A stretch of 64,000 nucleotides of DNA from Methylocystis sp. ATCC 49242 (GTDB lineage: Bacteria; Pseudomonadota; Alphaproteobacteria; Rhizobiales; Beijerinckiaceae): positions 1,742,356 to 1,806,355 of the forward strand of contig NZ_KE124774.1 of NCBI RefSeq assembly GCF_000188155.2. Reading direction: 5' to 3'. Under the pieces are notes generated by a model. The model saw only the letters and a list, made by a program, of their open reading frames with translations, was not told the DNA's origin and did not search any database. A program made the position numbers and the translations under genes. This document shows positions 44,224 through 64,000 of this stretch, in pieces (the first letter of the stretch is position 1; every line of letters begins with the position of its first letter).

Positions 44224-44375
44224 TTCTCGTCCTCGATGTCGTCGTCCATCAGCACGCGATGCGCCGCGCCGTCGAGATCGTCGAATTGTCCGCTTCTCAA
44301 CGACCACATGAAGGCGACGAGAGCGACGAGGCCGAGCAGCACGGCGAGCGGAATGAGGAAGAGGAGAACGGTCAT
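44220..44375 (-). CDS. ccoS: cbb3 oxidase maturation protein CcoS
   Basis: A 51-residue protein: one N-terminal transmembrane helix (VLLFLIPLAVLLGLVALVAF), then WSLRSGQFDDLDGAAHRVL and an acidic tail (MDDDIEDEK). The pattern MW-S-L-RSGQFDDL is the CcoS/FixS signature. Required in Rhodobacter for heme and copper insertion into CcoN. It overlaps ccoI by ATGA and the MFS gene by GTGA, so the three are likely co-translated. Confidence 0.93.
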   Translation of the reverse strand: MTVLLFLIPLAVLLGLVALVAFMWSLRSGQFDDLDGAAHRVLMDDDIEDEK

Positions 44376-46618: not shown

Positions 46619-46632
46619 TTCGCGCCCTCTTG

Positions 46633-47172
46633 CTATTTCACCTCGACGCGGTTCCTGGAGCGGAAGACCTGCGCGCCGCCGAGATTGGCGCTGAGCTCCA
46701 GATCTCTTTGACCCGCAGGCAACGCCGCCCTCCCGGCGAAACGGCCCGGCGCCGTCTCCTCGAGCCTGAGGCGAACGTCCCTGGAGAGGTCAGCCGGCGC
46801 GGCGAAAGCGGCGTTCATCTCGACGCCTGTGATTTCGGCGCCATTCGCGTCGCGCGCGGTGACGAGGATTTCCGTCATGTCGGCGTTGCGCGTCAACTCC
46901 ACATCCACCTTCCAGTCCCGCGCCGCCTGCGCGCGCGCCTGCGCAATGTCGCGATTGTAGGCGAGGCCGCGCTCATATGGATGGGCGACGACTTCGCCGG
47001 AGAAGGTCTTGATGGCGTAATAGATCATTACGCCATTGACGCTGCTGACGAAGACGAAGAAGCCGACGAGCATCGCCAGCACCTTCCATCCATTGAGCGG
47101 CCGGCCGCCGGCTTCGTAATCGGTCTGTGGCTCCGGCCTTGATCTGCGCATATTGCTCATGGCGAGGCTCAT
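46633..47172 (-). CDS. ccoH: cbb3 oxidase assembly protein CcoH (FixH)
   Basis: A 179-residue protein with one membrane helix (GWKVLAMLVGFFVFVSSVNG) followed by a periplasmic beta domain; FixH has VNGVMIYYAIKTFSG and HPYERGLAYNRDI. It stays bound to the oxidase during assembly. The ATG has GAGGTAGAAAC upstream. Between ccoG (9 nt) and ccoI (14 nt). Confidence 0.93.
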   Translation of the reverse strand: MSLAMSNMRRSRPEPQTDYEAGGRPLNGWKVLAMLVGFFVFVSSVNGVMIYYAIKTFSGEVVAHPYERGLAYNRDIAQARAQAARDWKVDVELTRNADMTEILVTARDANGAEITGVEMNAAFAAPADLSRDVRLRLEETAPGRFAGRAALPAGQRDLELSANLGGAQVFRSRNRVEVK

Positions 47173-47181
47173 GTTTCTACC

Positions 47182-48630
47182 TCACGGCCATACGAAGACA
47201 TCCTTGGCGTCGATTGTCGCGCCGCTGTCGATGTCCTTCACGGTGAAGACGACGGGGGTCTGTCCCTTTTTCTCCGCCGCGCCGCGGGTTGCAAGTAGAA
47301 CGCGCGTCTCGCGCGTTTGATCCGGCCCGACTTCGATGACGACGCGGCCGCTGGCGTCGGGTTCGACCCCGACGACGTCGGCGCGCGCGTCGACGCCGGC
47401 AACGGCGAGGGTAAAGTGACGCGGTTCGGACTTCTTGTTGGAGAAGCGAACAGTATAACCGTTGCGCACGCCGCCGTCCTTCAGGCGAACGCTGAGCGGA
47501 TTGCGGTCATGCAGCACGCTGACGCTCATGTCGCCGCGCGTCGCAAGCGTCACCGACATGAAGCCGCCGATGGCGAGAATGAGAATGGCGTAAGCGACAG
47601 TGCGCACACGGATGGGACGATAGATCGAGGTCTCGCCGCATTCGCGCCGCTTGATGTTCATCTCCGTGTCATAGCCGATGAGGCGCGCCGGCCGGTGAAC
47701 CTTCTCCATGACGGCGTCGCAGGCGTCGATGCACAGGCCGCACTGGATGCAGCCGAGATTCGCCCCCTGGCGGATGTCGACGCCCGTCGGACAGACCGCC
47801 ACGCACTGGCCGCAGTCGACGCAATCGCCCGCCAGCGCCCCTGCGGCCCGCGCGGCGGTCGCCTGCTTGAGCGACATGCGCGGCTCGCCGCGATCGTAGC
47901 GATAGGTGACGTTGAGCGCATATTCGTCGGTCAGCGCCGCCTGAATGCGCGGCCACGGACAGGCGTGCAGGCAAAGCTTCTCGCGCATCACGCCCGCGAA
48001 GACATAGGTCGTGAAGGTGAGGATGCCGATCCAGAGATAGGCCTCGCCGGCGCCGGGCTGGAAGGTCGCAAGCTCATAGACGAGCGTCGGCGCATCGGCG
48101 AAGTAGAGCACCCAGGCGCCGCCGGTCCACCAGGCGATGAGCAGCCAGACGAAGTGTTTCGAGACCTTCTTGCGGATCTTTTCGAAAGTCCACGGCCCGG
48201 AGTCGAGCTTCATGCGCTCGCGCGAGTCGCCTTCGATCCAGCGCTCCGTGGTCATGAAGAAATCGGTCCACACCGTCTGCGGACACATGTACCCGCACCA
48301 GATGCGGCCCGCGACGGCGTTCATCAGGAAAAGCACGAGCGCGGCGAGGATCAGGAGGCCCGTGACGTAATAGACTTCCTGCGGCCAGATCTCGATGAAG
48401 AAGAAATAGAAGCGCCGATGCGGGAAATCGACGAGCACGGCCTGCGACGGCGCATTCGGCCCGCGATCCCAGCGCACGAAGGGAAGGAAATAATAGATCG
48501 CGAGGGTCGCGAACTGGATGCCCCATTTGATGCGACGGAACTGGCCGTCGACCTTCTTGGGATAAATCCTCTTCTCGGGCTCGACGAAGGGTTCATCCAG
48601 GAGCGGTTGATGTGCGTCTGCGCTGGACAT
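47182..48630 (-). CDS. ccoG: cbb3 oxidase accessory protein CcoG (FixG/RdxA)
   Basis: A membrane iron-sulfur protein of 482 residues, shown in other bacteria to reduce Cu2+ to Cu+ for oxidase assembly. It has several membrane helices, RIWCGYMCPQTVW, two 4Fe-4S clusters (CGQCVAVCPTG and CIQCGLCIDAC), and a C-terminal periplasmic IgG-like domain. The ATG at 48630 is preferred; a 42-residue upstream in-frame extension is not conserved-looking. ccoP ends 149 nt upstream, the largest gap within the cluster, so ccoGHIS may have its own promoter. Confidence 0.93.
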   Translation of the reverse strand: MSSADAHQPLLDEPFVEPEKRIYPKKVDGQFRRIKWGIQFATLAIYYFLPFVRWDRGPNAPSQAVLVDFPHRRFYFFFIEIWPQEVYYVTGLLILAALVLFLMNAVAGRIWCGYMCPQTVWTDFFMTTERWIEGDSRERMKLDSGPWTFEKIRKKVSKHFVWLLIAWWTGGAWVLYFADAPTLVYELATFQPGAGEAYLWIGILTFTTYVFAGVMREKLCLHACPWPRIQAALTDEYALNVTYRYDRGEPRMSLKQATAARAAGALAGDCVDCGQCVAVCPTGVDIRQGANLGCIQCGLCIDACDAVMEKVHRPARLIGYDTEMNIKRRECGETSIYRPIRVRTVAYAILILAIGGFMSVTLATRGDMSVSVLHDRNPLSVRLKDGGVRNGYTVRFSNKKSEPRHFTLAVAGVDARADVVGVEPDASGRVVIEVGPDQTRETRVLLATRGAAEKKGQTPVVFTVKDIDSGATIDAKDVFVWP

Positions 48631-48779
48631 GAGCGGATACTCTGCTGTGTCTCGGACTCCGCGCCACGCGCCTCGTCCGTCGGCGATACGGTCGTCGCCC
48701 TGCTGCAAGTCGGAAAGTTCCGACTCGCAGATTGTGTCGTGAGGGCGCCCGGACAAGGACGCCGGACAAAGCGTCGCGC

Positions 48780-49667
48780 CTACTGCCCGCCGCCGAGCGA
48801 ATGGACGTAGACGGTGAGCGCCTTGATGGTCGTTTCGTCGAGCTTGTCCTTCCAGGCCGGCATCACGCCGCCGCCGCCATTGGTGATGCGGGCGACGATG
48901 GACGGCTTGTCGGAGCCATAAAGCCAGACCTGGTCATAAAGCGCGGGCGCGCCCATTTCGGGATTGCCCTTGCCCTCGACGCCGTGGCAGGCGGCGCAGT
49001 TCTCGGCATAGAGCTTCTCGCCCTCAGCCGTCGGCGCATCCGAGTCCGGCGTTTCGGCGTAGGTGCGCACATGATCCGCGACGATCGAGATCTGCTCCGG
49101 CGTCAATATGCCGTCGCGGCCGAAGGCCGGCATGGCGGAGGTCCGCGTCGCCTTGTCGGCGTCCCAGCGCACGCCATGCTCGATCGTCTGCCGGATGTCC
49201 GCGAGCTTGCCGCCCCAGATCCAGTCGTCGTCGTTGAGGTTGGCGTAGCCCTTGGCGCCCTGCCCGCCCGCGCCGTGGCAGGCGGCGCAGTTCGTCGCAA
49301 AGGCGACCTTGCCGACCATGCGCGCCGCCGCCAGCAGTTCAGGATTGGACTCGATCTGCTCGAGCGAGGCGTCCTTGATCTTGGCGAGGATCGGTCCGCG
49401 CGTCTCCTGCAAATCGGCCATCTCCTGCGCCACCTGATCGCGCGAGCTCCAGCCGAACAGCCCCTTCGTGCCGCCCGAAAAAGTCGGCCAGGCCGGGTAA
49501 ACGACCGTATAGGCGATCCCCCATATGATCGTCGCCCAGAGGGTCCACACCCACCATCGCGGCAGCGGCGTGTTCAGTTCCTCGATGCCGTCCCATTCAT
49601 GGCCGGTCGTCGGCACCCCGCTGTGTTCGTCGATCCTGATCTTTCCGTGCTCAGCGTCCTGAGACAT
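48780..49667 (-). CDS. ccoP: cbb3 oxidase subunit III CcoP (di-heme cytochrome c)
   Basis: A membrane-anchored dihaem c-type cytochrome that passes electrons to CcoN. 295 residues: one membrane helix (WVWTLWATIIWGIAYTVV, 39-56) and two CAACH haem sites at 127-131 and 224-228. The ATG at 49667 has GAGAGG nine bases upstream; ATG 49676 is an alternative. It overlaps the ccoQ end by 17 nt. Confidence 0.95.
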   Translation of the reverse strand: MSQDAEHGKIRIDEHSGVPTTGHEWDGIEELNTPLPRWWVWTLWATIIWGIAYTVVYPAWPTFSGGTKGLFGWSSRDQVAQEMADLQETRGPILAKIKDASLEQIESNPELLAAARMVGKVAFATNCAACHGAGGQGAKGYANLNDDDWIWGGKLADIRQTIEHGVRWDADKATRTSAMPAFGRDGILTPEQISIVADHVRTYAETPDSDAPTAEGEKLYAENCAACHGVEGKGNPEMGAPALYDQVWLYGSDKPSIVARITNGGGGVMPAWKDKLDETTIKALTVYVHSLGGGQ

Positions 49668-49848
49668 CGTCGTCATCCTCTCGCAAAGGCATTTCGGCTG
49701 CTTCATCGAACGACTTCTTGCGCGAGGGCCAGAAGACGTAGGCGATGACGCCAAGGAAAATCACGCCGAAGAAGATCAGACCCCATGACGCCGCGAATGC
49801 GCGCCACGCTTCATAGGTCGATACGACTTCGGCCGCTGCTCCGTTCAT
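49651..49848 (-). CDS. ccoQ: cbb3 oxidase subunit CcoQ
   Basis: A 65-residue protein with a single membrane helix (LIFFGVIFLGVIAYVFW) and a Lys- then Glu/Asp-rich tail. CcoQ stabilises the oxidase and aids CcoP incorporation. AGGTGATCCC precedes the ATG; it lies between ccoO (4 nt) and ccoP (overlap). Confidence 0.93.
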   Translation of the reverse strand: MNGAAAEVVSTYEAWRAFAASWGLIFFGVIFLGVIAYVFWPSRKKSFDEAAEMPLREDDDDVSGR

Positions 49849-49852
49849 GGGA

Positions 49853-50608
49853 TCACCTGATGTTGGCCTTGTCGTCGTAGAGCTTGAAGTCCACGGAGAC
49901 GCCGAGGTGCTGCAGATAGGCGATGAGCGCGTCCTCCTCGGTCACGCCGCCCTTGGAGGCGACGTCCATGAGGACGGCGTTGGGATAGCGTTTCTGCATG
50001 GCGGCGGCGCCCGGATCGTCCGGCCCGCTCTGCGCCTTGAGATCGACTTGCGCGTTCTCGATCTGCTCGTCGGTGTAAGGCACGCCGACGATGCGCAGCG
50101 TCTTCATCTGCTCTTCGATGTGCTCCGATTTGAGCGGCGTCGTCGCGAGAAACGGGTAGCCCGGCATGATCGAGCTCGGCACGACCGAACGCGGGCTGCG
50201 CAGATGGTCGCGCTGCCAGTCGTTCGAATATTTGCCGCCGACGCGCGCAATGTCGGGACCATTGCGCTTCGAGCCCCACTGGAAGGGATGGTCGTACATG
50301 CTCTCCGCGGCGAGCGAGTAGTGACCATACCGCTCCACCTCGTCGCGCAGGGGCCGGATCATCTGCGAATGGCAGGTGTAGCAGCCCTCGCGGACGTAGA
50401 TGTTGAAGCCCGCAAGCTCCAGCGGCGAATAGGGGCGAATCCCTTCGACCTTCTCGATCGTGTTCTTCAGATAGAAGAGCGGCACGATCTCGAAGACGCC
50501 GCCGATCGACACCAGAACGAGGATGGCGACGACGAGCAGGATCGAATTGGTCTCCAGCAGTTTTTGCAGTCCGCCGGAGGAAGGCGCGTGTTGAGTCGAT
50601 TGCGACAT
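49853..50608 (-). CDS. ccoO: cbb3 oxidase subunit II CcoO (mono-heme cytochrome c)
   Basis: 251 residues: an N-terminal membrane anchor (ILLVVAILVLVSIGGVFEIV) and one haem site CYTCH at 76-80 (REGCYTCHSQMIRPL), followed by the WGSKRNGPDIARVGGKYS segment of CcoO. GAGGACGAAAG precedes the ATG at 50608; an upstream in-frame extension inside ccoN is rejected. It lies 11 nt after ccoN. Confidence 0.95.
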   Translation of the reverse strand: MSQSTQHAPSSGGLQKLLETNSILLVVAILVLVSIGGVFEIVPLFYLKNTIEKVEGIRPYSPLELAGFNIYVREGCYTCHSQMIRPLRDEVERYGHYSLAAESMYDHPFQWGSKRNGPDIARVGGKYSNDWQRDHLRSPRSVVPSSIMPGYPFLATTPLKSEHIEEQMKTLRIVGVPYTDEQIENAQVDLKAQSGPDDPGAAAMQKRYPNAVLMDVASKGGVTEEDALIAYLQHLGVSVDFKLYDDKANIR

Positions 50609-50619
50609 GTCTTTCGTCC

Positions 50620-52275
50620 TCACTCGGCAGGCATGGGCGCCGCGGCGATGTCCGACGTCGGCTCCAATGCGGGAGAGGCAAGGGTGCGGTAGATGTTGTA
50701 GACCATGATCAGCGCGCCGATCAGGAACAGGCCGCCGCCGATCGCGCGAATGATGTATTCGGGATGCAGCGCCTCGGTCGTCTCCACAAAGGAATATTCG
50801 AGGAAGCCCTGCGGCGTATACGCGCGCCACATGAGGCCCTGCATGATGCCCGCCACCCACATCGAGGTGATGTAGAAGACGATGCCGATCGTGGCGACCC
50901 AGAAGTGCCAGTTCACGAGCTTGAGCGAATAGAGCTGGCGGTTGAACACCCAGGGGATCAGGCAGTAAAGTGCGCCGAAGGACACGAAGGCCACCCAGCC
51001 GAGCGAGCCCGAATGCACGTGGCCGATGCCCCAGTCAGTGTAGTGCGACAGCGAATTCACCGCCTTCACCGACATCAGCGGACCCTCGAAGGTCGACATG
51101 CCGTAAAAGGCGACCGACACGACGAGCATGCGCAGCACGGGATCGGTGCGCAGCTTGTCCCACGCGCCAGAGAGCGTCATCAGGCCGTTGATCATGCCGC
51201 CCCATGACGGCATCCACAGGATCACCGAGAAGACCATGCCGAGCGTCTGCGCCCAGTCGGGCAGCGCCGTATAGTGGAGGTGGTGCGGACCCGCCCAGAT
51301 ATAGAGGAAGATCAGCGACCAGAAGTGCACGATCGACAGGCGGTAGGAATAGATCGGCCGGCCCGTGCGCTTGGGGATGAAGTAATACATGATGCCCAGG
51401 AAGCCGGTGGTGAGGAAGAATCCCACCGCGTTATGGCCGTACCACCACTGGATCATTGCGTCCTGCACGCCGGACCACACGATCACGGAGTGCGGCGAGA
51501 AGATCGAGATCGGGATCTCGGTGTTGTTGCCGAGCACCAGAACCGCGATCGTCACAATGAAGGACAGGTAGAACCAGTTGGCCACATAGATATGCGGCTC
51601 GGTGCGGCGCGCGAGCGTGACGAGATAGACCAGCAGATAGGTCACCCACACCACGACGAGCCACAGGATCGCGTACCATTCCGGCTCGGCGTATTCATGC
51701 GATCGCGTGATGCCGAGCAGATAACCCGTGCCGGCGATCAGGATGAAGAAGTTGTAGCCCAGCACGATGAACCACGGCGCGAGATCGCCCGCGATGCGCG
51801 CGCGGCTCGTGCGCTGCATGACGTAAAAGGACGTCGCGAGCAGCACGTTGCCGCCGAAGGCGAAGATCACCGCGGATGTGTGCAGCGGCCGCAGGCGGCC
51901 GAAGTTGATCCAGGGCAAATCGAGATTGAAGACCGGAAAGGCGAGTTCGAGCGCCAGATAGAGGCCGACGATGAAGCCGGCGATCCCCCAGAACAACGCG
52001 GCGATCGAGGTGAACTTGATCGGCCCGTAATTATAGTTCGGGCGTCCGTCGATCACGAGCGGCGGGAGCGTCGCCGGCCGCGCGCGGTAACGCAGCAGTA
52101 TGGCGACGACCGCGGCCACTGAGCCGAGCGAGAACGTCGCCGCATGAAAGGCGTAGGCCGGGGTGTAGGCTTTCGTCGCAATATAGGCCGTCGCGACGGC
52201 GAGCGCCGCGAAGATCGCCGACAGCGATATTTCGCCGAAGGTCATGCGTTTCGAGATCAGAGGTGGGCGCTCCAT
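50620..52275 (-). CDS. ccoN: cbb3 oxidase catalytic subunit CcoN
   Basis: The haem-copper oxidase subunit I of the C family, which reduces O2 and pumps protons with high oxygen affinity. 551 residues with about 12 membrane helices; histidine ligand regions include [30 protein letters not shown] and [23 protein letters not shown] precedes the ATG. It heads ccoNOQP, and an FNR/FixK site lies about 147 bp upstream. Confidence 0.97.
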
Positions 52276-53255: not shown

Positions 53256-56200
53256 ATGCGGCGAATTGCGTTTTCTCTCATGGCCGCGCTCGCGGCCTCC
53301 CTCCTTTCGCCCCAGGCCTCGACAGGCCGAGACGCCATAGCGGAGACGAAACAGAGGTCCGCCGCGGCGCAATTTTCGCCAAGAGATCTGCCGGCCGACC
53401 GTGATGGCGCGAGCCTGCTGACAATCCCCGCTGCGGGGCGCTACTCGATCCGGGCGAAGAGCCCCGCCGGCGCGCGCATCGAACTCGTCGACATGATCGC
53501 CGGACCGATGGAGTCCGCTGGCGCTGCGGGTCTGCGCGACGGCCGCATCGACGCGCTGCTCGACAAGGGCGTGTATAAAATTCGCGTCGCCGGCGCGAAA
53601 GGCGCGAGCGGCAAGGTCACGCTCGCGGCCGAGCCCTTTGCGGAAATGGAAGCGTCGCGTCCCTCGCTCGTCCAGGGCAAGGTTGAGAACGGCGAACTCG
53701 GCGACCTTCAGCAGCGTTCCTACACGCTCGACGTAAACGCCGGGGGTCCGGTCTATCTCGAAGCCGTCGGCCGCTCCCTGCGGGACCTGCGCGTCTGGCA
53801 ATCCGACGGGGCGCTCGTCGACCTCGCCTTCGAGCGCGGCGCCGTCGAGACGAAACCCGGCCGCTACATGACGCGGCTGCGTCTCGAAGGCCCGCTGTCT
53901 CCCGGACGTTATGTTGTTACGGCCTATGGCGGCGAAAAACTCGTCTGGTCCGACGGCGCGACGACGCAGCCTTTCATGTTGCGTCTCGCCGATCCGGCGC
54001 TGCTGGCGGCGGGCGTTGCGGAGGGCGTCATCGGCCCCTTCGGCGCCGCGCGTTTCGAGGCGCCGGCGAGCTACGACGCATTCCGTCTCGAACTCCCCGA
54101 GCAGAAGCCCGCGCGTCTCGACGCGAGGCGCGGGAGCGCGCGTGACACGACGATCATCGACAAGACGAGCCGCGCTCCGGTCGCGATTGCGCGCGTCGCC
54201 GCCGACGGCAAGGCGTCGGCGCGATTGGAAATCTCCGGCCTGGAAGGACAGACGTTCAATCTGCGCGCCGTCCATCAGTCGAACCGCGAGACATTCGAGG
54301 CCGAAGGTCCGCATCTCGTCTCGATAGACGTCGCGGGCGAGGGGGGCGACGAGGCTCCGGCGACGGCGCTCCTCGCGCGGCTCGAAAAGGACGGCAAGAC
54401 GCGCGTCATCGCCTCGGACGCCCCGCGCATCGGCGTCGGCAAGGCGTGGCGCGGCAGGTTCAACGTCCTCGGCTCGACCTCCCTTTTGTTCGAGGCGACG
54501 CGCGACGGTCCCGTCGAGATCGCAGTCAAGGGCGTGAAGCTGCGCGCGACGATCGAACCGGCGCTGGGGACATCGGCGCCGCGCGCCGACGGCAAGGACG
54601 CGATCCGCTACGATCTCGCCGCGGGCTATTATTTCCTCATGCTGGAGCCGCAAAACGGCTCCGGCGGCGTGGTCGACGTCACGCTCGGTCCGCCCGGGCT
54701 CGCCGCGCCGGCGCCGACCGCGCCGCCGTCGCGCGCATCGATCTCCTTTGGCGAGCATCGGCTGGAAAAGGACGGTTCCTATCTCATCCTCGCCAATGTC
54801 GCGCCGGGGCTCCTCACCGGTCCGCGCGTCGTCGCCCTGCCGGCGGAGCTCGACAAGGCGCCGCTAGCCCTGCATCAGGATGCGAACAAGGAAATCTCGC
54901 TGGCGACGCGCACGCCGAAAGCCGGCAAGACTATTGCGCGCGACGAGACAGGCGCCGACGTCGCCCTGACCTTCGCGGACGAAAAGATCGAGAACGACAA
55001 GCGCGTCGTCACGGTTAAAATCGCGCCCGTCGAAAAGGATCGCGCAATCGGCCTCGTCTTCATCCCCGACGCGCCGGCGACCGACGGCGGCGAATCGGCG
55101 AAGATCGAAGATACAGGCAAGATCGTCCGCGCCGCCGCAGGCCGCCCGGCTTTCTTCAATCTCGCCCAGGATGAAACGAAAAACCTGCGGTTCGACGTCG
55201 CTGAAGGCGGCCTTTACCGCATCGAGACTCTTGGCCGCATGAAAACGGCGCTGCGCGTCGGCGCGACCGCGACGCCGCGACTGGGCGAAGGCGAAGCGAA
55301 CGGCCCCGGCAAGAACGGGCTGGTGACGACCTTCCTGCGCGCGGGCGCCTACCGCGCCGCCGTCACCGCAAAGGAATCCGCCGGCCATCTCGGCCTTTCG
55401 ATCACGCCCGCGATTCTGACTCCGACGGCGAAAGTAACCGACGCCGGCGGCGCACGCGCGACGCTCGAACCCGGCAAGGGCGCCGTCGTTCCTTTCGAGA
55501 TCACGAAAGCCGGCGATTATCGCATCGACCTGCTCGGCCTGAAGCGCGAATGGCGCGCGCGCATCGAGGACGCCGACGGCTGGCCGCTCGCGCCGCCCGG
55601 CAAATTCAAACGGGAGACGCGCCGCTACGAACCCGGCGCCTACCGCCTCGTCGTCACGCCCGAAGATGTCGAGGCGCGCATGGTCATGCGCCTCACGCCC
55701 GTCGTCGCCGCGGCGGACCTCGAAGGCCATGGTCCACACGCCCTGCCCTTCGAGAAGCCGCAAAGGCTGCAATGGCGCGAACCGCAGACGAAGGACGCGC
55801 CGCGCGCGCCCGACGTCTGGCGCTTCACGCTGCATGGCGACTCCGACGTCGAACTGACCATCGGCGAAGGCATGATCGGCGATATTGTGAAAGGCGAAAA
55901 GGAGTCGATCGGCAAGGTGGTCGGCGACCGCCCCTTCAAGGGAAAACTGGCCGCCGGAGACTATCGCGTCGACGCGCACAGCCTCAGCCACGATGACCGC
56001 CTCGATTACGAGATTTCACTCACGTCGGAACAATTGCAGCCCGACGCGCCGCGCCGCGTCGATCTCCCCGCGACCCTCGCATTTTCACTTGCACACGAGG
56101 CCATCGTCGATGTGACGGGCTTTGGCGACGAGGAAGCGATCGGCGTGCTGAAAAATGCGACGGGCGACATCGTCGAGCGCCTGCAGACCCGCGCCGACGA

Positions 56201-58376
56201 CTGGAATGTCGCAATGTCGCGTCGCCTGCCGGCGGGAGACTATCGGCTCGAACTCGAGACACTCGGCGTTGTGGCTGAACCGCCAGGCGAAGGCTCAGAC
56301 TCGAGCGACGAGAGCGCGAACAGCGAAAGCGCTGGCGATGAAAGCGCGGCGTCGGACGCGACAGAGGAAGAAATCCAAAGCGGCGTCGAAATCCGGCTCG
56401 CGCTGATGGACGAAAAGGACGATGGCGCTCTGACGTCGAGCGGCGAGACAGTCGTCACGGGCGCCGGCGCGCATCGCCTGCGCCTTCCCGCCACGCCGCC
56501 GGGGGAACTCGCGCTCGTCGCCGCGCGCGCCGATAGCGAAGTCGCCTTGTCCATCGAACGCCGCAGCGCAGACGGCGCATGGCGCGTCATCGGCGTCGAA
56601 CGCGGCGTCGCGCCCGCGGCGGCGTGGCCCATGCCCGACGACAAGAGCGAATGGCGCGCGGTCGTGTGGCCTGTCGGAGGCGGCGCAACGCCCATTGCCA
56701 TCGCCGCGCGAAGCATCGATCGACGCGCGCGGGGCGCCGGCGACATAACGCCGGAGATCGTCGACGGCGTGACGCCGCAAATTTGCGTCGCCAAGGCGGC
56801 GACGCCCGACGCCGCGCTTGTCGAACTATCTGCGCCCGACGGCGTGGCCGCTGGCTCCGCGCCCGCGCAACTGCTGCGCGCCGCGCGCTCCGGCCCCCTG
56901 GCCCCGCAAGCTCAGGCGCTGTGGCTGATGACGCGCGACTGCAAGACGAAGCCGCGCGTCGTCGCTTTCGAATGGAAGGGCGAGGAAATCTCGCTCGACA
57001 TCGGCGAGAACGAGCGCGCCCAACTGCCGCCGCTCGCAGCGCCTAAGGGCAAGACACGGTTGTGGCTCGCGCGCTCCGCCTTCGCGCAGCCGGGAATCGA
57101 GGCTGGCCGCGGCATGGGCGTCGCCCCCGGCGCGGCGCTGGCGCTCGCCGGCGACACCGCGCCGCAATTGTGGAACGCTGGCGGCGCCGGCGCGATGCGC
57201 GTCGCGCTACGCGCCATCGATGTCGACACGCGCGCTCCGGTTTCCGGCGGCGCGCTCTTCTCGGGCGTCATCGCGCCAATGACCGCCCAGCCTGTCGACA
57301 TCGACAAATCCGACGCGCCCCTGGCGCTCGACCTCGCGGGCGGCGTCGCCGCCTTCACCGACGCGCGCGCCATCTTCGGCGATGGCGCGGCGACCGCGCG
57401 CATCCTGCATGGCGCCGGCGCGCGCCTGTGGCTGGTCAATGTCGGCGACGCGCCCCTGCCCGCCCGGATTGCGCGCCTCCCCGACGCGGCGGCGACGTTG
57501 AACGCGAAGACCGCGTTCAAGCGCTTCTTCGGCGCCGGCGGAGAAATTTCCCTGCCGGTCGATGCGCAGAAGGGCGACCGCATGATCGTCATCGGCGCCG
57601 ACGCGACCGTCGTTTCGCAAAGCGGACGCGTTGCGCGCGGCGTCGACCTCGCGCTCGACGGGCCGGGCGAGGCGATCATCAGCCACAAGCCGGGCCTCGT
57701 CGCCGTCTGGATCGAACGCGGCGGCGCCGCGCCCTGGCCGCAGCCGACGGCGCGCCCGCTCGCGCCGCCGCAGCGCGTCGCGCTCGAAGGCGCGGCGATG
57801 CGCTTCACCCTGAAAGGCGAAGCCCCCGTGATGATCGGCGCTTCGAGCAATGCGCCGGCGCTCGTCGCCTTTACGCAGAACGGAAAGCGCGAGACGCTCG
57901 CCTTCGCCTCCGGCGTCGAACTCCATCGCTACATGGCGGCGGGCGAAGCGACGCTGGACGTATACGCCCCTCATGACGGCGCCTTGTCCGGAACGCTCGA
58001 CGTCTCCGCGCAACCGGTGATCGCCGTGCATGAGGGCGTGAACGATCCCGTCGCCGTTTCGCCCGGCGCGAGCGCGCTCTTCTCCTTCGAAACGACTCGC
58101 GACGGCGATATTGGAATTGGCGTGCGCGCCGCGCCCGATCGCGTCAGCGCGCGCGTGCTCGACGCAAGCGGCAAGATTCTCGGCGACGGCGTGACTCAAA
58201 TGCTGAAGCTTTCGCAGGGCCGCTATTTCATCGAGGCGCGCGTTCCGCCCGACGCCGGCGCGACCACCATTCGCGCGGCGATTGTCGGCATATCGCCGCC
58301 GCCAGCGGCGCCGCCGGATGAGGTTGTGGCCGAGCTGCTCGACAAGGCCGGCATGAAAAAGACCAAAGCAAAATGA
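53256..58376 (+). CDS. Giant exported beta-repeat protein of unknown function, partner of A2M
   Basis: About 1,706 residues, not recognised as a known family. A signal peptide (MRRIAFSLMAALAASLL...) is followed by many units that end in an [AP]-G-x-Y strand: AAGRYSIRA, PGRYMTRL, PGRYVVTA, AGYYFLML, AGAYRAAV, AGDYRIDL, PGAYRLVV, AGDYRVDA, AGDYRLEL, QGRYFIEA. They resemble pre-peptidase C-terminal (PPC)-like beta-sandwiches. A Ser/Glu/Asp/Ala-rich acidic stretch lies around residues 1008-1042. Cysteines are very few. The ATG at 53256 begins at the signal peptide; an in-frame start at 53127 is less likely. An alpha-2-macroglobulin gene follows after 17 nt, so the two probably act together in the periplasm. 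Confidence 0.75.
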   Translation: MRRIAFSLMAALAASLLSPQASTGRDAIAETKQRSAAAQFSPRDLPADRDGASLLTIPAAGRYSIRAKSPAGARIELVDMIAGPMESAGAAGLRDGRIDALLDKGVYKIRVAGAKGASGKVTLAAEPFAEMEASRPSLVQGKVENGELGDLQQRSYTLDVNAGGPVYLEAVGRSLRDLRVWQSDGALVDLAFERGAVETKPGRYMTRLRLEGPLSPGRYVVTAYGGEKLVWSDGATTQPFMLRLADPALLAAGVAEGVIGPFGAARFEAPASYDAFRLELPEQKPARLDARRGSARDTTIIDKTSRAPVAIARVAADGKASARLEISGLEGQTFNLRAVHQSNRETFEAEGPHLVSIDVAGEGGDEAPATALLARLEKDGKTRVIASDAPRIGVGKAWRGRFNVLGSTSLLFEATRDGPVEIAVKGVKLRATIEPALGTSAPRADGKDAIRYDLAAGYYFLMLEPQNGSGGVVDVTLGPPGLAAPAPTAPPSRASISFGEHRLEKDGSYLILANVAPGLLTGPRVVALPAELDKAPLALHQDANKEISLATRTPKAGKTIARDETGADVALTFADEKIENDKRVVTVKIAPVEKDRAIGLVFIPDAPATDGGESAKIEDTGKIVRAAAGRPAFFNLAQDETKNLRFDVAEGGLYRIETLGRMKTALRVGATATPRLGEGEANGPGKNGLVTTFLRAGAYRAAVTAKESAGHLGLSITPAILTPTAKVTDAGGARATLEPGKGAVVPFEITKAGDYRIDLLGLKREWRARIEDADGWPLAPPGKFKRETRRYEPGAYRLVVTPEDVEARMVMRLTPVVAAADLEGHGPHALPFEKPQRLQWREPQTKDAPRAPDVWRFTLHGDSDVELTIGEGMIGDIVKGEKESIGKVVGDRPFKGKLAAGDYRVDAHSLSHDDRLDYEISLTSEQLQPDAPRRVDLPATLAFSLAHEAIVDVTGFGDEEAIGVLKNATGDIVERLQTRADDWNVAMSRRLPAGDYRLELETLGVVAEPPGEGSDSSDESANSESAGDESAASDATEEEIQSGVEIRLALMDEKDDGALTSSGETVVTGAGAHRLRLPATPPGELALVAARADSEVALSIERRSADGAWRVIGVERGVAPAAAWPMPDDKSEWRAVVWPVGGGATPIAIAARSIDRRARGAGDITPEIVDGVTPQICVAKAATPDAALVELSAPDGVAAGSAPAQLLRAARSGPLAPQAQALWLMTRDCKTKPRVVAFEWKGEEISLDIGENERAQLPPLAAPKGKTRLWLARSAFAQPGIEAGRGMGVAPGAALALAGDTAPQLWNAGGAGAMRVALRAIDVDTRAPVSGGALFSGVIAPMTAQPVDIDKSDAPLALDLAGGVAAFTDARAIFGDGAATARILHGAGARLWLVNVGDAPLPARIARLPDAAATLNAKTAFKRFFGAGGEISLPVDAQKGDRMIVIGADATVVSQSGRVARGVDLALDGPGEAIISHKPGLVAVWIERGGAAPWPQPTARPLAPPQRVALEGAAMRFTLKGEAPVMIGASSNAPALVAFTQNGKRETLAFASGVELHRYMAAGEATLDVYAPHDGALSGTLDVSAQPVIAVHEGVNDPVAVSPGASALFSFETTRDGDIGIGVRAAPDRVSARVLDASGKILGDGVTQMLKLSQGRYFIEARVPPDAGATTIRAAIVGISPPPAAPPDEVVAELLDKAGMKKTKAK

Positions 58377-58393
58377 GCCCGAAAGGCGCTTCG

Positions 58394-61300
58394 ATGAAAA
58401 AGTCTTTTCTTCTTCTCTTCTGTGCGGCGCTCTCCTTCGCGCAGCCTGTGCGCGCCGAACCGCCGCCCGTCTTCGATCGCGCGCAGCGCGCCGACGGCGC
58501 GCGTGTGACGCCGGATCGTTTCCTGCGCAGCTATGATCCCCTCACGATCTTCTTTCCCGCCGATACCGGACCGAAGGCCGTCGGCGCGGAAGACACGCCC
58601 GGCAAATATGTCGCCGTCGCGCCGCAGCCCGCGGGCGAATGGCGGTGGATCGGTCCGCGCGCCCTGCAATTTCGTCCGGCCGAAGCATGGAAGCCGCTTG
58701 CGCGCCTGAGCGTGAAACTCGGCGCCGCGGAAACGAAACTCGTCGCGCTCCTGCCGACTCCGAAATCGACAAATCCGGCCGCGGACGCCGAGCCCACGCC
58801 CGAGCTGACGCAGATTTCGCTCACATTTTCCGAGCCCGTCGACGTCGCCGCGCTGAAGCGGCTGATGACGGTCGAGCTGCGTCCTTCGCCGGGCGTGTCG
58901 CCCCAGGGCGGGCAAATGCTTAGCGCCTCGGCCTTCGACATTCGCCCGCTCGAACGCGCCGAGCGCAGCAGCGAGCAGACCTATGTCCTGCGCTTTCGCG
59001 AGCCGATCTCCGACGGCCGTGTTGCGATACTGCGCCTGAAACTCTCGGACGAGCCAGGCCTCGACGACGAAAACTACGAATTGCGCGTGCGCACCGCTCC
59101 GCCCTTCGCCGTGACGGAAACGACCTGCGGACATGGCTGGAGCGACGACAAGCTTGCGGGTGTGTTGCGCTGCCAGTCGAACGGCGACTCGCCGCCAGCA
59201 CCCGAAAGCGGCGAGGAGGAAGGCGGCGACGTCGCCACTAATTATACGCCGACGAACAAACGCCGTCTTACACTAACCTTCACGACGCAGCCGGAAGCGC
59301 TCGACATTTTGCGCGCGCGCGAGGCTTTGCGCGTTACGCCGCCGGTCGACGATCTCGCGGTCGAGGTCGATCGTCAGCATCTCAAAGTTTCGGCGAAATT
59401 CCTCACCGACACGGTTTATGAACTTTCCATCGCGCCGGGCGCCATGCGCGATAATCGCGGACGCCCGCTTGCGAGCGCTTTCTCACAGCGTTTCGCCTTC
59501 ACGCGCGACACGCCCGCGCTGCAATGGGACGCCGGCTACGGCGTCGTCGAACGCCTCGGCCCGCAGCTTCTGCCGCTGCGCGGACGCGGCTATGACCGCG
59601 CGGACATTCGCATCCATGCGATCGACCCGCTGTCGCGCGATTTCTGGCCCTTCCCCGAACATGGCGTCGAGACGGTCGACAGCGAGGCGCCGCCGCTGCC
59701 GGGTAACGAGCCGAAACGCTGGAGCGAGAGCGCGAATATAGAAGCCGACGCAATCAGGGAGCGCGTCAAATTCCTGGGTTCGCCGGCCGTGTCGCGCCTC
59801 GTCGAATTGCCGATCCGCCGCAATGGAATCGACGCCAAATTCGGGCTGGACCTCAAGGAAGATTTCGCGCGCGTCGCCGGACGCGAACAGCCGGGAACCT
59901 ATCTCGTCGGCCTGCGCACGGTCGATGAAGACAAGCGCAAATGGCTGCGCGTGCAGGTCACCGACCTGTCGCTCTCCGCCATCGAGGAGCCGACGCGCGT
60001 GCGCTTCGCCGTCACCTCGCTCGCGACGGCGCAGCCGGTGAGCGGCGCGCAAATCCGGATCGAAGGCGTGAAGGACGACAAATTCGTAACGCTGGCGAAT
60101 GGAACGACGGACTCTTCGGGCTTCTTCTCCTGGAGTCCGGGCAAGCGCGGCGACGGCGAGCTGCGTCGCGTCGTGGTGAGCAAGGGGCTCGATACGCTCG
60201 TTATCGATCCCGACAGCGCGCCTTCGGAATATTCGAAGGAAATCTGGTCGAAGCCGGAAGCGCAATGGCTGTCATGGACCAGCGACGCGGATGCGCCGCG
60301 CGCGGAGAAGCCGCGCACGCTCTGCCATGTCTTCTCCGAACGCCCGATCTACCGGCCCGAGGAGCCGGCGCACATCAAGGGCTTTGTGAGAAGCTATCGC
60401 GGCGGCGCGCTGACCCTGACGAAGACCGGCGGAACGCTCGTCGTCACCGGCCCGGGCAATCAGGAGTGGCGTATCCCCGTCAAGCTCGACGCCGCCGGAA
60501 GTTTCTATCACAAATTCGACGCGCAGACGCCCGCGACGGGCGACTACGCCGTGAAGTTCGAACCCGACGCGCCGGCGAAAAAGGCGAAGGCGGAAACGGC
60601 GAGCGATAGCGAGGAAACCTCAGAGACCGAATCCGCCGACGCCGGGCAGGAGCTCTCATGCGGGCAGTTCAGCTTCAAGAAGGAAGCCTATCGGCTGCCA
60701 ACCTTCGAAGTCGTGCTCAATGCGCCGCAGACCGTCGCACTCGACGGAACCTTCGACGTCGATCTCCTGGCGCGCTATTTCGCCGGCGGGCTCGCCGCGG
60801 AGCGGCCCGTCAAATGGCGCGCGGCGCAGTTCCCGCATGTGTTCACGCCGCCGCGCCGGGAAGGCTTTCTCTTTTCGACCGACGCGCGCTTCTCCGGCGA
60901 GGGCAAGTTCAAATCCACGGCCATTCTGGAGCGCGACCAGCGCACCGACGCCGGAGGCGCCGCGCGCATGACCTTCGACACGACGATCGAACCCACCGCG
61001 CAGCCGCGCCGCTATTCGATCGAGGCGACTGTTACGGGCGACGACGGAATCGAAGTGCGAAACGTGCAGAACGTCATCGCGCTGCCGCCTTTCGTGCTCG
61101 GCGTGAAAACGCCGCGCTACGTCGAGCGTCCCGGCGCCGTGACGCCGGAGATTATCGCCGTCGACGGCAAGGGCGACGCCATCGCGGGCCTCGACATGAC
61201 TTTGCGCCTCATCCGGCGCAACTGGATTTCCACGCTGCAGGCGAGCGACTTCGCGCAGGGCGCGGCGAAATATGTCACGCAGGTGCAGGACGAAACGATC

Positions 61301-64000
61301 CTCGAGCGCAAGGTGACGAGCGCGAAGGACGCGCAGAAAATCGAACTGGAGGCGAAGGAGGCCGGCGTCTATGACGTGCAGCTCGAAGCCTTTGACAGGC
61401 TGAAACGCCGACAGCAGGTGAGCGTCGATTTCTTCGTCGGCGGCGAGACGCCCGTGACTTTCGCGCGCCCGCCGGCTTCCTCCGCGACGGTCACGACCGA
61501 CAAGGAAAAATATGCGCCCGGCGAAACGGCGACGCTGATCATTCAGTCGCCATTCCAGAACGCGCGCGCGCTGGCGATCGTCGAGCAGCCGGGCGGCGTC
61601 TATGATTACAGTTTCGTGGACATAGCCAACGGCTTCGGCCGCTATGCGCTGCCGGTGAAGAAGGAGCAGACGCCCAAACTCGCGGTCCATTTCCTCATCA
61701 TGCGCGGAAGGCTGAAGGACAGCGCGCCGCAAGCCGCCGCGAATTTCGATCAGGGCAAGCCCGTCACAATCGCGGCGACGAAATGGATCGAGGTGACGCC
61801 GGTCAAGAATATCGTCAATGTGAAGCTCGAACACCCCGGCAAGGCGCGTCCGGGACAGGAAGTTGAAGTCACGCTGCGCCTCTCCGACGATGCCGGCAAG
61901 CCGGTCGCAGGCGAAGCGACGTTCTGGATGGTCGATCAGGCGGTGCTGTCGCTCGCCAAGGAGCGACCGCTCGATCCGCTGCCCGACTTCATCGTCGCGC
62001 GCGAGACAAAAATGGCGGCGCGCGATACGCGCAACATGGCCTTCGGCGTCATTCCGCTCGAAGAAATCGCCGGCGGCGACGGCGGCGAGTTGCAGGAATG
62101 GGGCGCGGAGAACAATATTTCCGTCCGCAAGAATTTCACGCCCGTTCCGATCTATCTGCCGAGTGTGAAAGTCGGTCCCGACGGCGTCGCTAAAATAAAG
62201 GTGTCGCTGCCGGACACGCTCACCGTCTTCAAGCTGCGCGCGAAGGCCGTGAGCGGGCCGGACCGTTTCGGCGCCGCGGGCGGCGAGATGCTGATCCGTC
62301 AGGAACTCGTGGCGCAGCCGGCGTTGCCGCGCTTCGTGCGGCCGGGCGACAGTTTCGACATCGGCCTCGTCGCGCGCGTCGTCGAAGGGCCCGGCGACGC
62401 CGGCAAGGCGGCGATCGCAGCGCCCGAGCTGAAACTGACGGGGGAAACGAGCCGCAAAATTGAATGGACGCAGAACAGGCCCGTGCGCGTCGATCTGCGC
62501 GCCGACGTTCCGGCGTCGGCGAAAGACAGCACGAAACTGTCCTTCCGCATCGATCGCGACGCGGACCGCGCGAGGGACGCCGTCGAAATCGACCTGCCGG
62601 TCAAGCCCGATCGCGAACCGACGCGCAAATATGAAATCGTCGAAATCGCGCCCGGCGAAACCAGGACGCTTGCCTCCGCAGGCGAAACAGCGCGCGCAAA
62701 AACATTCTCACGAGAGGTTATCGTTGCGGCGGACCCCGCATTGGTGAAGCTCGTCGCGGGGCTCAACGCTCTCGTCGAATACCCCTATGGCTGCACGGAG
62801 CAGCGCCTGTCGGTCGCGCGCGCGGGCCTTGCGCTGAAGAGCTTTTCCCCGATCCTCGCGGCTGCGGGGCTGGAAGATCGCGTGTCGGGAATTGTGAAAT
62901 CGACGGCGCAGCAGATCGAGCAATCCATCGATGGCGACGGGCTGGTCGCCTTCTGGCCGCGCGCGCAGGGCAATGTCTCGCTGACCGCATGGGCGTATGC
63001 GTTTCTCGCGCAGGCGCAGCGCTCGGGCGAGACGATCGACAAGACGCTGACCGACCGGCTTGCGAATATTCTCCAACTATCGCTGCGCTCCGACTATCCG
63101 CGCCTGCTTGGCGGCGAGGAAATGCGCGAGCGCGTCGCCGCCTTATCGGCGCTTGCGGAGGGCGGCAAGCTCGACGAATCCTACGTCTCGGAATTTGCCC
63201 GGCGCGCGGATTTCCTGCCCAATGAAAGCGTCGCGGAAATGGTCGGCGCCGCCGCACGTCTGCCCAATGTCGACCAGCGAATTGTCGCCTCGCTCATCGA
63301 GACGATGTGGAGTCGCGTGAAATTCGCGAGCCGCAGAGGCGCGCAGGTCTATGCGGGACAGGCGGCGGAGAGCGCCTCGCCGGTCATTCTGCCGTCCGAG
63401 ACGCGCAGCCTCGCGGAGATGCTGCGCGCCGCCGCGCTCGCCGCGCCTTCCGATCCCCGTGCGCCCGTGTTGCGCGAGGCGCTGCTGCGCCTTGGAGAAG
63501 GCGACGGCTGGGGCGCGACCAACGCCAACGCCGCGGCGATCGAAGCCTTGGCGGAAGGCTGGCGGCGTCCCGTCGCGCCGATCGGCGTCGCTTTCAGGCT
63601 CGGCGAAGCGGAGGCGCAAATCGTCACCATCGACGCCAATAATCCTGTCGCGCGTCACCTGAGCGAAGACGACGCGCCGCTGTCGATCTCCAACAACTCC
63701 AATGCGCCGCTGATCGCGCTCATCGAGACGCGTTATGTTCCCGCCGAGGCGGGCGCCGACGCGCAGGCCGCGAGCGAGGGCTTCGCGATCACGCGCCAGA
63801 GCTGGCGCGTCAAGAGCGGCGCGGCGCCGGAGAAGCTGGAGCCGACCGGCGGCGTGCTGCGCGTGACGCAGGGAGACGTCGTCGAGGAGACGGCGGAGGT
63901 CGTCAATCCCGAAGACCGCACCTATGTCGCGATATCGCTGCCGCTCGCCGCGGGTTACGAACCGCTCAATCCAAACATTGCGACCGCGCCGGCCGAGGCG
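58394..64000 (+). CDS. Alpha-2-macroglobulin family protein (partial, runs off window)
   Basis: At least 1,869 residues, open at the window end. Bacterial alpha-2-macroglobulins trap proteases in the periplasm by a covalent thioester. A signal peptide (MKKSFLLLFCAALSFAQPVR, cleavage after VRA) lacks a lipobox, so the protein is soluble rather than a lipoprotein like E. coli YfhM. MG-type beta domains follow (SERPIYRPEEPAHIKGF near 647; FWMVDQAVLSL near 1180), then the thioester motif YPYGCTEQ with Cys1467. An acidic linker lies near 729-755. The start is ATG 58394 with AAAGGCG upstream; ATG 58373, overlapping the previous stop, is possible. Confidence 0.88.
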   Translation, partial: MKKSFLLLFCAALSFAQPVRAEPPPVFDRAQRADGARVTPDRFLRSYDPLTIFFPADTGPKAVGAEDTPGKYVAVAPQPAGEWRWIGPRALQFRPAEAWKPLARLSVKLGAAETKLVALLPTPKSTNPAADAEPTPELTQISLTFSEPVDVAALKRLMTVELRPSPGVSPQGGQMLSASAFDIRPLERAERSSEQTYVLRFREPISDGRVAILRLKLSDEPGLDDENYELRVRTAPPFAVTETTCGHGWSDDKLAGVLRCQSNGDSPPAPESGEEEGGDVATNYTPTNKRRLTLTFTTQPEALDILRAREALRVTPPVDDLAVEVDRQHLKVSAKFLTDTVYELSIAPGAMRDNRGRPLASAFSQRFAFTRDTPALQWDAGYGVVERLGPQLLPLRGRGYDRADIRIHAIDPLSRDFWPFPEHGVETVDSEAPPLPGNEPKRWSESANIEADAIRERVKFLGSPAVSRLVELPIRRNGIDAKFGLDLKEDFARVAGREQPGTYLVGLRTVDEDKRKWLRVQVTDLSLSAIEEPTRVRFAVTSLATAQPVSGAQIRIEGVKDDKFVTLANGTTDSSGFFSWSPGKRGDGELRRVVVSKGLDTLVIDPDSAPSEYSKEIWSKPEAQWLSWTSDADAPRAEKPRTLCHVFSERPIYRPEEPAHIKGFVRSYRGGALTLTKTGGTLVVTGPGNQEWRIPVKLDAAGSFYHKFDAQTPATGDYAVKFEPDAPAKKAKAETASDSEETSETESADAGQELSCGQFSFKKEAYRLPTFEVVLNAPQTVALDGTFDVDLLARYFAGGLAAERPVKWRAAQFPHVFTPPRREGFLFSTDARFSGEGKFKSTAILERDQRTDAGGAARMTFDTTIEPTAQPRRYSIEATVTGDDGIEVRNVQNVIALPPFVLGVKTPRYVERPGAVTPEIIAVDGKGDAIAGLDMTLRLIRRNWISTLQASDFAQGAAKYVTQVQDETILERKVTSAKDAQKIELEAKEAGVYDVQLEAFDRLKRRQQVSVDFFVGGETPVTFARPPASSATVTTDKEKYAPGETATLIIQSPFQNARALAIVEQPGGVYDYSFVDIANGFGRYALPVKKEQTPKLAVHFLIMRGRLKDSAPQAAANFDQGKPVTIAATKWIEVTPVKNIVNVKLEHPGKARPGQEVEVTLRLSDDAGKPVAGEATFWMVDQAVLSLAKERPLDPLPDFIVARETKMAARDTRNMAFGVIPLEEIAGGDGGELQEWGAENNISVRKNFTPVPIYLPSVKVGPDGVAKIKVSLPDTLTVFKLRAKAVSGPDRFGAAGGEMLIRQELVAQPALPRFVRPGDSFDIGLVARVVEGPGDAGKAAIAAPELKLTGETSRKIEWTQNRPVRVDLRADVPASAKDSTKLSFRIDRDADRARDAVEIDLPVKPDREPTRKYEIVEIAPGETRTLASAGETARAKTFSREVIVAADPALVKLVAGLNALVEYPYGCTEQRLSVARAGLALKSFSPILAAAGLEDRVSGIVKSTAQQIEQSIDGDGLVAFWPRAQGNVSLTAWAYAFLAQAQRSGETIDKTLTDRLANILQLSLRSDYPRLLGGEEMRERVAALSALAEGGKLDESYVSEFARRADFLPNESVAEMVGAAARLPNVDQRIVASLIETMWSRVKFASRRGAQVYAGQAAESASPVILPSETRSLAEMLRAAALAAPSDPRAPVLREALLRLGEGDGWGATNANAAAIEALAEGWRRPVAPIGVAFRLGEAEAQIVTIDANNPVARHLSEDDAPLSISNNSNAPLIALIETRYVPAEAGADAQAASEGFAITRQSWRVKSGAAPEKLEPTGGVLRVTQGDVVEETAEVVNPEDRTYVAISLPLAAGYEPLNPNIATAPAEA

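Follow-up and report, generated by a model that had tools for sequence, protein, structure and literature searches.

Two kinds of bacterial alpha-2-macroglobulin (A2M) system serve as the closest points of comparison for the locus described here. Type I A2Ms, such as YfhM (ECAM) of Escherichia coli and Sa-A2M of Salmonella, carry a thioester motif together with bait-region and macroglobulin (MG) domains, and have pbpC directly downstream; in the sections of PMC5764988 and PMC4498604 drawn upon here, A2M and PBP1C are proposed to act jointly, the former trapping proteases that enter the periplasm and the latter repairing the wall. The type II system is the mag operon, in which MagD has MagA, MagB and MagF as partners and thus provides a precedent for an A2M that works with other proteins (PMC5764988, as far as drawn upon). 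We describe a three-gene unit in a 64,000-nucleotide stretch of Methylocystis sp. ATCC 49242 (contig NZ_KE124774.1, positions 1,742,356 to 1,806,355; hereafter the window), where the gene of a giant exported protein precedes those of an A2M and a PBP1C. Bacterial A2M-PBP1C systems being already known, what makes this cassette notable is its giant partner, its spread across phyla, its carriage on plasmids and its fusion to a further domain in some lineages; we found nothing on the giant-A2M-pbpC trio in the open-licence PMC literature. The three genes and the main features of the A2M are as follows.

53256..58376, + strand: gene 1 of the cassette, giant exported protein of 1,706 residues (open reading frame from ATG 53256 to the stop at 58376)
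58394..64000, + strand, continuing to window-equivalent 64225: gene 2, A2M of 1,943 residues
61487..61954, + strand: bait-region domain A2M_BRD, A2M residues 1032-1187 (PF07703, E 3.8e-15)
62171..62368, + strand: A2M domain PF00207, A2M residues 1260-1325 (E 4e-10, 39.8 bits against a cut-off of 21)
62792..62803, + strand: thioester motif CTEQ (in YPYGCTEQR), from A2M residue 1467 onward
64228-66453 in window-equivalent positions, beyond the window: gene 3, pbpC, 741 residues, 2 nt after the A2M gene

A preliminary description of the window had reported an exported protein of about 1,700 residues followed 17 nt later by an A2M with an intact-looking CxEQ motif, and both are real: the A2M start codon (58394) lies 17 nt past the stop of the giant gene (an alternative in-frame ATG at 58373 overlaps that stop by 4 nt), the CTEQ motif is present, and the bait-region domain is matched. 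A2M_BRD, MG2, A2M, Big_5 and bMG10 all scored above their curated Pfam cut-offs, with bMG3 slightly under, and the PF00207 match is the only one in the source genome. No solved chain matched this A2M by sequence at 0.001, which rules it out as a close relative of one. The same description had set the locus against E. coli, where pbpC and not a giant protein neighbours the A2M gene, and had suggested reading past position 64000. That reading located pbpC as the third gene, its product having the Transgly, Transpeptidase and BiPBP_C domains of the PBP1C architecture (Pfam); the contrast with E. coli therefore narrows to the added giant, since pbpC is here too.

The window thus shows the CxEQ motif, the bait-region and MG domains and the PBP1C-type pbpC neighbour of a type I system, with an extra giant gene upstream. 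One feature that may or may not be required of the type, a lipid anchor, is not seen: ECAM is described in the part of PMC4498604 drawn upon as anchored in the inner membrane, whereas a pattern scan recognised no lipobox in the window's A2M and gave a match in 2 of 57 cassette A2Ms. Operon partners and the lack of a lipobox recall the mag operon, from which the cassette differs in having three genes rather than six and pbpC in place of the mag partners.

The three-gene order is conserved far beyond Methylocystis. The preliminary description had named rare adjacency in relatives as a point that would speak against the pair; in fact, 34 of the 40 named loci have A2M and giant adjoining and in the same orientation, the remaining six being on contigs that end inside the giant, and pbpC comes next in 28 of the 29 named loci that reach past A2M. 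We also searched 195 genomes of the phylum of one genome (G528), which we read as Myxococcota; giant matches occurred in 49, and loci were fetched from 38, leaving out 11 matching genomes. A2M follows the giant in 35 of these 38 loci (the other three stop at contig ends), and 32 loci show pbpC, the remainder being cut short. In the window's phylum, a genome of another class (G870) has the giant, then an A2M (39% identical), then pbpC (39%), and in a genome of the same order (G765) an A2M (40%) directly follows the end of the giant. G870 probably belongs to the Gammaproteobacteria, because its giant scores higher against the gammaproteobacterial-labelled proteins P0274 and P0336 than against that of the window. 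Seven plasmid records, all from Rhizobium, also carry the giant; the two Rhizobium plasmids that were opened share only the three genes together, with different flanks. The cassette is therefore spread over Alphaproteobacteria (Rhizobium plasmids among them), G870 and Myxococcota.

The linkage extends to co-occurrence. When the window's A2M was searched against 149 genomes of its family, which we take to be Beijerinckiaceae, 19 scored above 700 bits and the next best reached 117 bits, and the same 19 carry the giant; a cassette-type A2M (best match at least 477 bits, next genome 279 bits) is present in 46 genomes of the Myxococcota set, all 46 with a giant, the bit threshold having been chosen after the score gap was seen. 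Giant and A2M are adjacent by coordinates in 18 of the 19 family genomes, and split between contigs in the last (G105). Three of the 49 giant-matching Myxococcota genomes fall outside the 46: two have borderline giant matches (G696 and G698, E above 1e-4), and in G716 (L261, G716:C136) the giant is broken up into several short frames next to a partial A2M match (173 bits), a cassette that is decayed or badly assembled. Hypergeometric probabilities of this co-occurrence, which ignore kinship, are 2e-24 for the family and 1.5e-41 for the Myxococcota. PF00207 itself is found in 97 of the 149 family genomes. At 20 ordinary A2M loci, a selection from the 78 A2M-bearing family genomes that have no giant plus the second A2M of G079, pbpC lies on the same strand in 19 and a giant in none. 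These data support a pairing of giant and A2M that is not accidental and, as far as the searches see, exclusive. Two genomes, G529 and G528, have 10 and 4 PF00207 matches, and so several A2M genes besides that of the cassette.

In a quick tree of 57 A2Ms, which had no E. coli or Salmonella rows, all 25 cassette A2Ms of both phyla lie on one side of a branch of length 1.3 (SH-aLRT 100). Another branch likewise sets apart the 20 ordinary A2Ms from the window's family, and the 12 Myxococcota A2Ms that belong to no cassette also fall outside the cassette group. A quick tree of 41 PBPs separates all 24 cassette PBPs from 17 ordinary ones, the two groups being divided by a single split (support 100). 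In both trees, the A2M and PBP of one cassette from the Myxococcota set (L176, genome G544) group with those of Alphaproteobacteria and G870. Across 57 complete cassettes, the distance matrices of giant, A2M and PBP are closely correlated (0.98-0.99), as they are when the 29 Myxococcota or the 28 alphaproteobacterial cassettes are taken separately (0.96-0.99); none of 999 permutations was as high in either case. The cassette is probably an old unit, and its distribution is most simply read as transfer of all three genes together between phyla.

The preliminary description had called the giant a repeat protein of unknown family. The second label holds in that nothing in Pfam or NCBIfam scored above cut-off, which rules out a known family of either collection, but the protein belongs to a large nameless family: at E up to 0.001 it retrieved 283 matching proteins, while 159 homologues were retrieved with a query from a Deltaproteobacteria-labelled genome and 566 with a profile. 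Names were taken from the best 120 matches of each search, about 8,000 candidates being scored per search; among those listed, the closest named relatives are Methylocystis proteins, many matches of the second query are from Archangium and Hyalangium, and those of the profile include Inquilinus, Roseococcus, Rhodopila and gammaproteobacterial names (Kaarinaea lacus). Most listed homologues are hypothetical or nameless in their sources and some are named LprI family; two (P0032 and P0049) carry the UniRef name 'Alpha-2-macroglobulin family protein', which is presumably a carry-over; by Pfam, the giant of the window contains no A2M domain. Neither did comparison with solved structures yield any sequence relative up to E 1, so that such a relationship is ruled out too. 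Hydropathy shows no transmembrane segment in the giant.

The label of repeat protein is borne out by profile-profile comparison, in which nine segments are each linked to at least one other at E of about 1e-3 or better; in the self-comparison the best repeat pairs reach 95% probability and weaker ones about 40-60%. Features of the giant are listed below with its residue numbers.

53256..53324, + strand: predicted signal peptide, approximate and read by eye, with no lipobox cysteine seen
53388..53636, + strand: PPC-like repeat, residues 45-127 (hhalign self-comparison, E 2.9e-05 to 623-718; model)
53661..53927, + strand: PPC-like repeat, residues 136-224 (hhalign self-comparison, E 1.2e-04 to 623-718; model)
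54423..54680, + strand: PPC-like repeat, residues 390-475 (hhalign self-comparison, E 1.5e-05 to 623-718; model)
55122..55409, + strand: repeat resembling PPC and collagen-binding domains, residues 623-718
55428..55664, + strand: PPC-like repeat, residues 725-803 (hhalign, E 3.4e-07 to 623-718; fold matches)
55728..56024, + strand: PPC-like repeat, residues 825-923
56031..56282, + strand: PPC-like repeat, residues 926-1009 (hhalign, E 1.6e-07 to 623-718)
56268..56369, + strand: acidic low-confidence linker, probably disordered, residues 1005-1038 (pLDDT below 50, model residues 181-214)
57792..57983, + strand: PPC-like repeat, residues 1513-1576 (hhalign, E 1.1e-04 to 1583-1680; covered by fold matches)
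58026..58241, + strand: PPC/PliG-like repeat, residues 1591-1662
58317..58346, + strand: short C-terminal helix, residues 1688-1697, candidate docking element (DSSP of the model)

Models of the giant, with mean pLDDT (predicted local distance difference test) of 88.9 and 89.2, place most of the chain in compact domains, and the modelled modules have the beta-sandwich fold of PPC and collagen-binding domains (CBD). The giant is thus predicted, with good confidence for the modules tested, to be an all-beta multi-domain chain of PPC-like beta-sandwiches. The PPC family PF04151 itself has no Pfam match in the window's giant and matches 4 of 27 members of a diverse giant set at E up to 0.01 (best 1.5e-06). 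Compared with known proteins bearing PPC or collagen-binding domains (ColG s3b, the PPC domain of Bacillus collagenase), the giant has about nine modules and no protease domain was found in it. The best conserved block of 50 residues (651-700) lies inside the repeat 623-718. The giant of G870 (L239:3785-7777) is shorter, with 1,330 residues, and has no region matching about residues 1120-1500, so that the core would seem to consist of the N-terminal array plus the last two modules. Across groups, the stretch of the C-terminal helix retains proline, acidic residues, Leu/Phe and Gly in alignments, and this helix is a candidate docking peptide.

Some relatives of the giant carry an additional N-terminal domain. 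Among 79 giant loci, 76 had a readable N-terminus and 15 of these an open frame of at least 150 residues ahead of the match, including all seven Rhizobium loci. When these 15 extended giants and four others were scanned, 15 of the 19 matched LprI, and we take the matches to be the extended giants; at least 15 of 76 giant relatives thus have LprI (PF07007), the domain of ScwA and of M. tuberculosis LprI, at the N-terminus. MliC had no match in scans of giant relatives.

The A2M also varies. CxEQ is kept at the aligned site in 54 of 63 cassette A2Ms, as in the window and unlike in MagD, and lost in nine, as in MagD. All seven Rhizobium A2Ms (L076, L077, L078, L080, L082, L083, L087) have Ser for the thioester Cys (GSTEQ) and keep the rest, and by sequence they form a natural thioester-loss lineage; the other two losses are in L176 and L159. 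Loss of the motif need not mean loss of function, because MagD of P. aeruginosa lacks it and still traps protease, held by its operon partners, according to the portion of PMC5764988 drawn upon.

Beyond the observed gene order, co-occurrence and grouping of cassette A2Ms and PBPs, we propose that the unit is a three-gene envelope-protection cassette, with the giant PPC-array protein as periplasmic partner or scaffold of a thioester A2M and a PBP1C, a reading to which we give an even chance. All three proteins would act in the periplasm, a location that is likely because of signal peptides and cysteines. The A2M, in which no lipobox was recognised and which we accordingly read as soluble, would be the protease trap, and PBP1C, anchored in the inner membrane, would mend the wall. 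The giant would form a long string of beads, binding the A2M and keeping it close to PBP1C or peptidoglycan, by analogy with MagB, which holds and stabilises MagD in Pseudomonas aeruginosa. Where LprI is fused in front, the giant would probably also contact or regulate wall hydrolases. The threat would come from predators, competitors or hosts, in the form of their proteases and wall enzymes, so that protection against predators or hosts may be what the cassette confers.

Several points weigh against this proposal. A PPC-like fold does not name a function, because it is found in numerous secreted proteins whose ligands differ, and giant and A2M could work side by side with no contact between them. 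Correlated distances are also expected from common descent alone, both trees were quick, and the A2M tree has long branches. The order itself has exceptions: about 2.3 kb separate A2M from pbpC in L146, and the single named locus without pbpC after A2M (L072:15019-25016, Methylosinus sp. Sm6), where the A2M match starts about 730 nt after the giant, indicates that PBP1C may not be essential to the cassette. PF07007 has no match in the window's giant, nor any at 0.001 in the whole source genome, which rules out that a separate LprI gene makes up for the missing domain. Finally, Salmonella ScwA, an LprI protein without MliC, did not inhibit lysozyme or affect resistance to it and acts on wall homeostasis, in the part of PMC7933661 drawn upon; the name 'lysozyme inhibitor' needs care for LprI, because ScwA has this domain and no lysozyme effect.

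A stronger version of the proposal, which we hold tentatively and think probably claims too much, is that the cassette stands beside types I and II as a third kind of system: an ancient shield that moves horizontally, in which the giant PPC chain would be an obligate scaffold physically joining a soluble trap to a membrane-bound wall-repair enzyme, with LprI directed against wall hydrolases in some lineages.

Among the alternatives, the one that fares best, while still unlikely, is that the giant is a peptidoglycan-side protein that binds or restrains the cell's own or foreign wall hydrolases through its PPC/PliG-like modules, with LprI where present, in parallel to the A2M and unattached to it, so that the operon would bundle hydrolase control, protease trapping and wall repair. 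The likeness of the PliG and PPC folds has been remarked upon (PMC12664993, in the portion drawn upon), and PPC-type matches to the C-terminal module score as high as PliG; PliG was therefore rejected as its specific identity, and the likeness is indistinguishable from the general PPC fold. The window's giant, moreover, has no LprI, and hydrolase control alone leaves unexplained why one A2M group has a giant.

Considerably less probable is a surface or secreted protein, adhesive or layer-forming, linked to A2M and pbpC by shared regulation of envelope genes. It would fit the signal peptide, the large all-beta tandem modules with a fold similar to collagen-binding domains, and the 28-37 cysteines of each Myxococcota giant (32 sequences), as in oxidised exported proteins; Pfam, however, recognised no anchoring or secretion domain (best match PKD at E 0.19), and a one-to-one linkage with one A2M type exceeds what shared regulation needs. 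We consider it very improbable that the giant serves as a decoy to be sacrificed, or as an activating bait, that proteases cut first: a long modular protein with an acidic low-confidence linker would suit that role, but most of the chain is predicted to be compact and the A2M owns a bait domain. Chance neighbourhood, or shared descent without shared function, has next to nothing in its favour beyond the general fact that neighbours can hitch-hike, and is contradicted by the co-occurrence and distribution of the cassette, which keeps its gene order in two phyla and on Rhizobium plasmids whose flanks differ, and in which the giant goes with one A2M type.

Upstream of the cassette, on the - strand of the window (44372-52275), a run of genes reads like a cbb3 oxidase cluster, with putative ccoNOP and ccoGHI genes named from their sequences.

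The cassette is a natural version of the A2M-pbpC pair with a third, very large gene tied to one A2M group in two phyla. The giant gives a direct handle on what the A2M trap does, and the proposal suggests a possible function for a family of very large proteins, most of them named hypothetical, while the A2Ms of Rhizobium that have lost the thioester offer natural variants for comparison. Carriers of the cassette include what we take to be genera of predatory myxobacteria; if the cassette is indeed a third kind of A2M system, it would keep predators safe from their own enzymes, or guard prey against predators.
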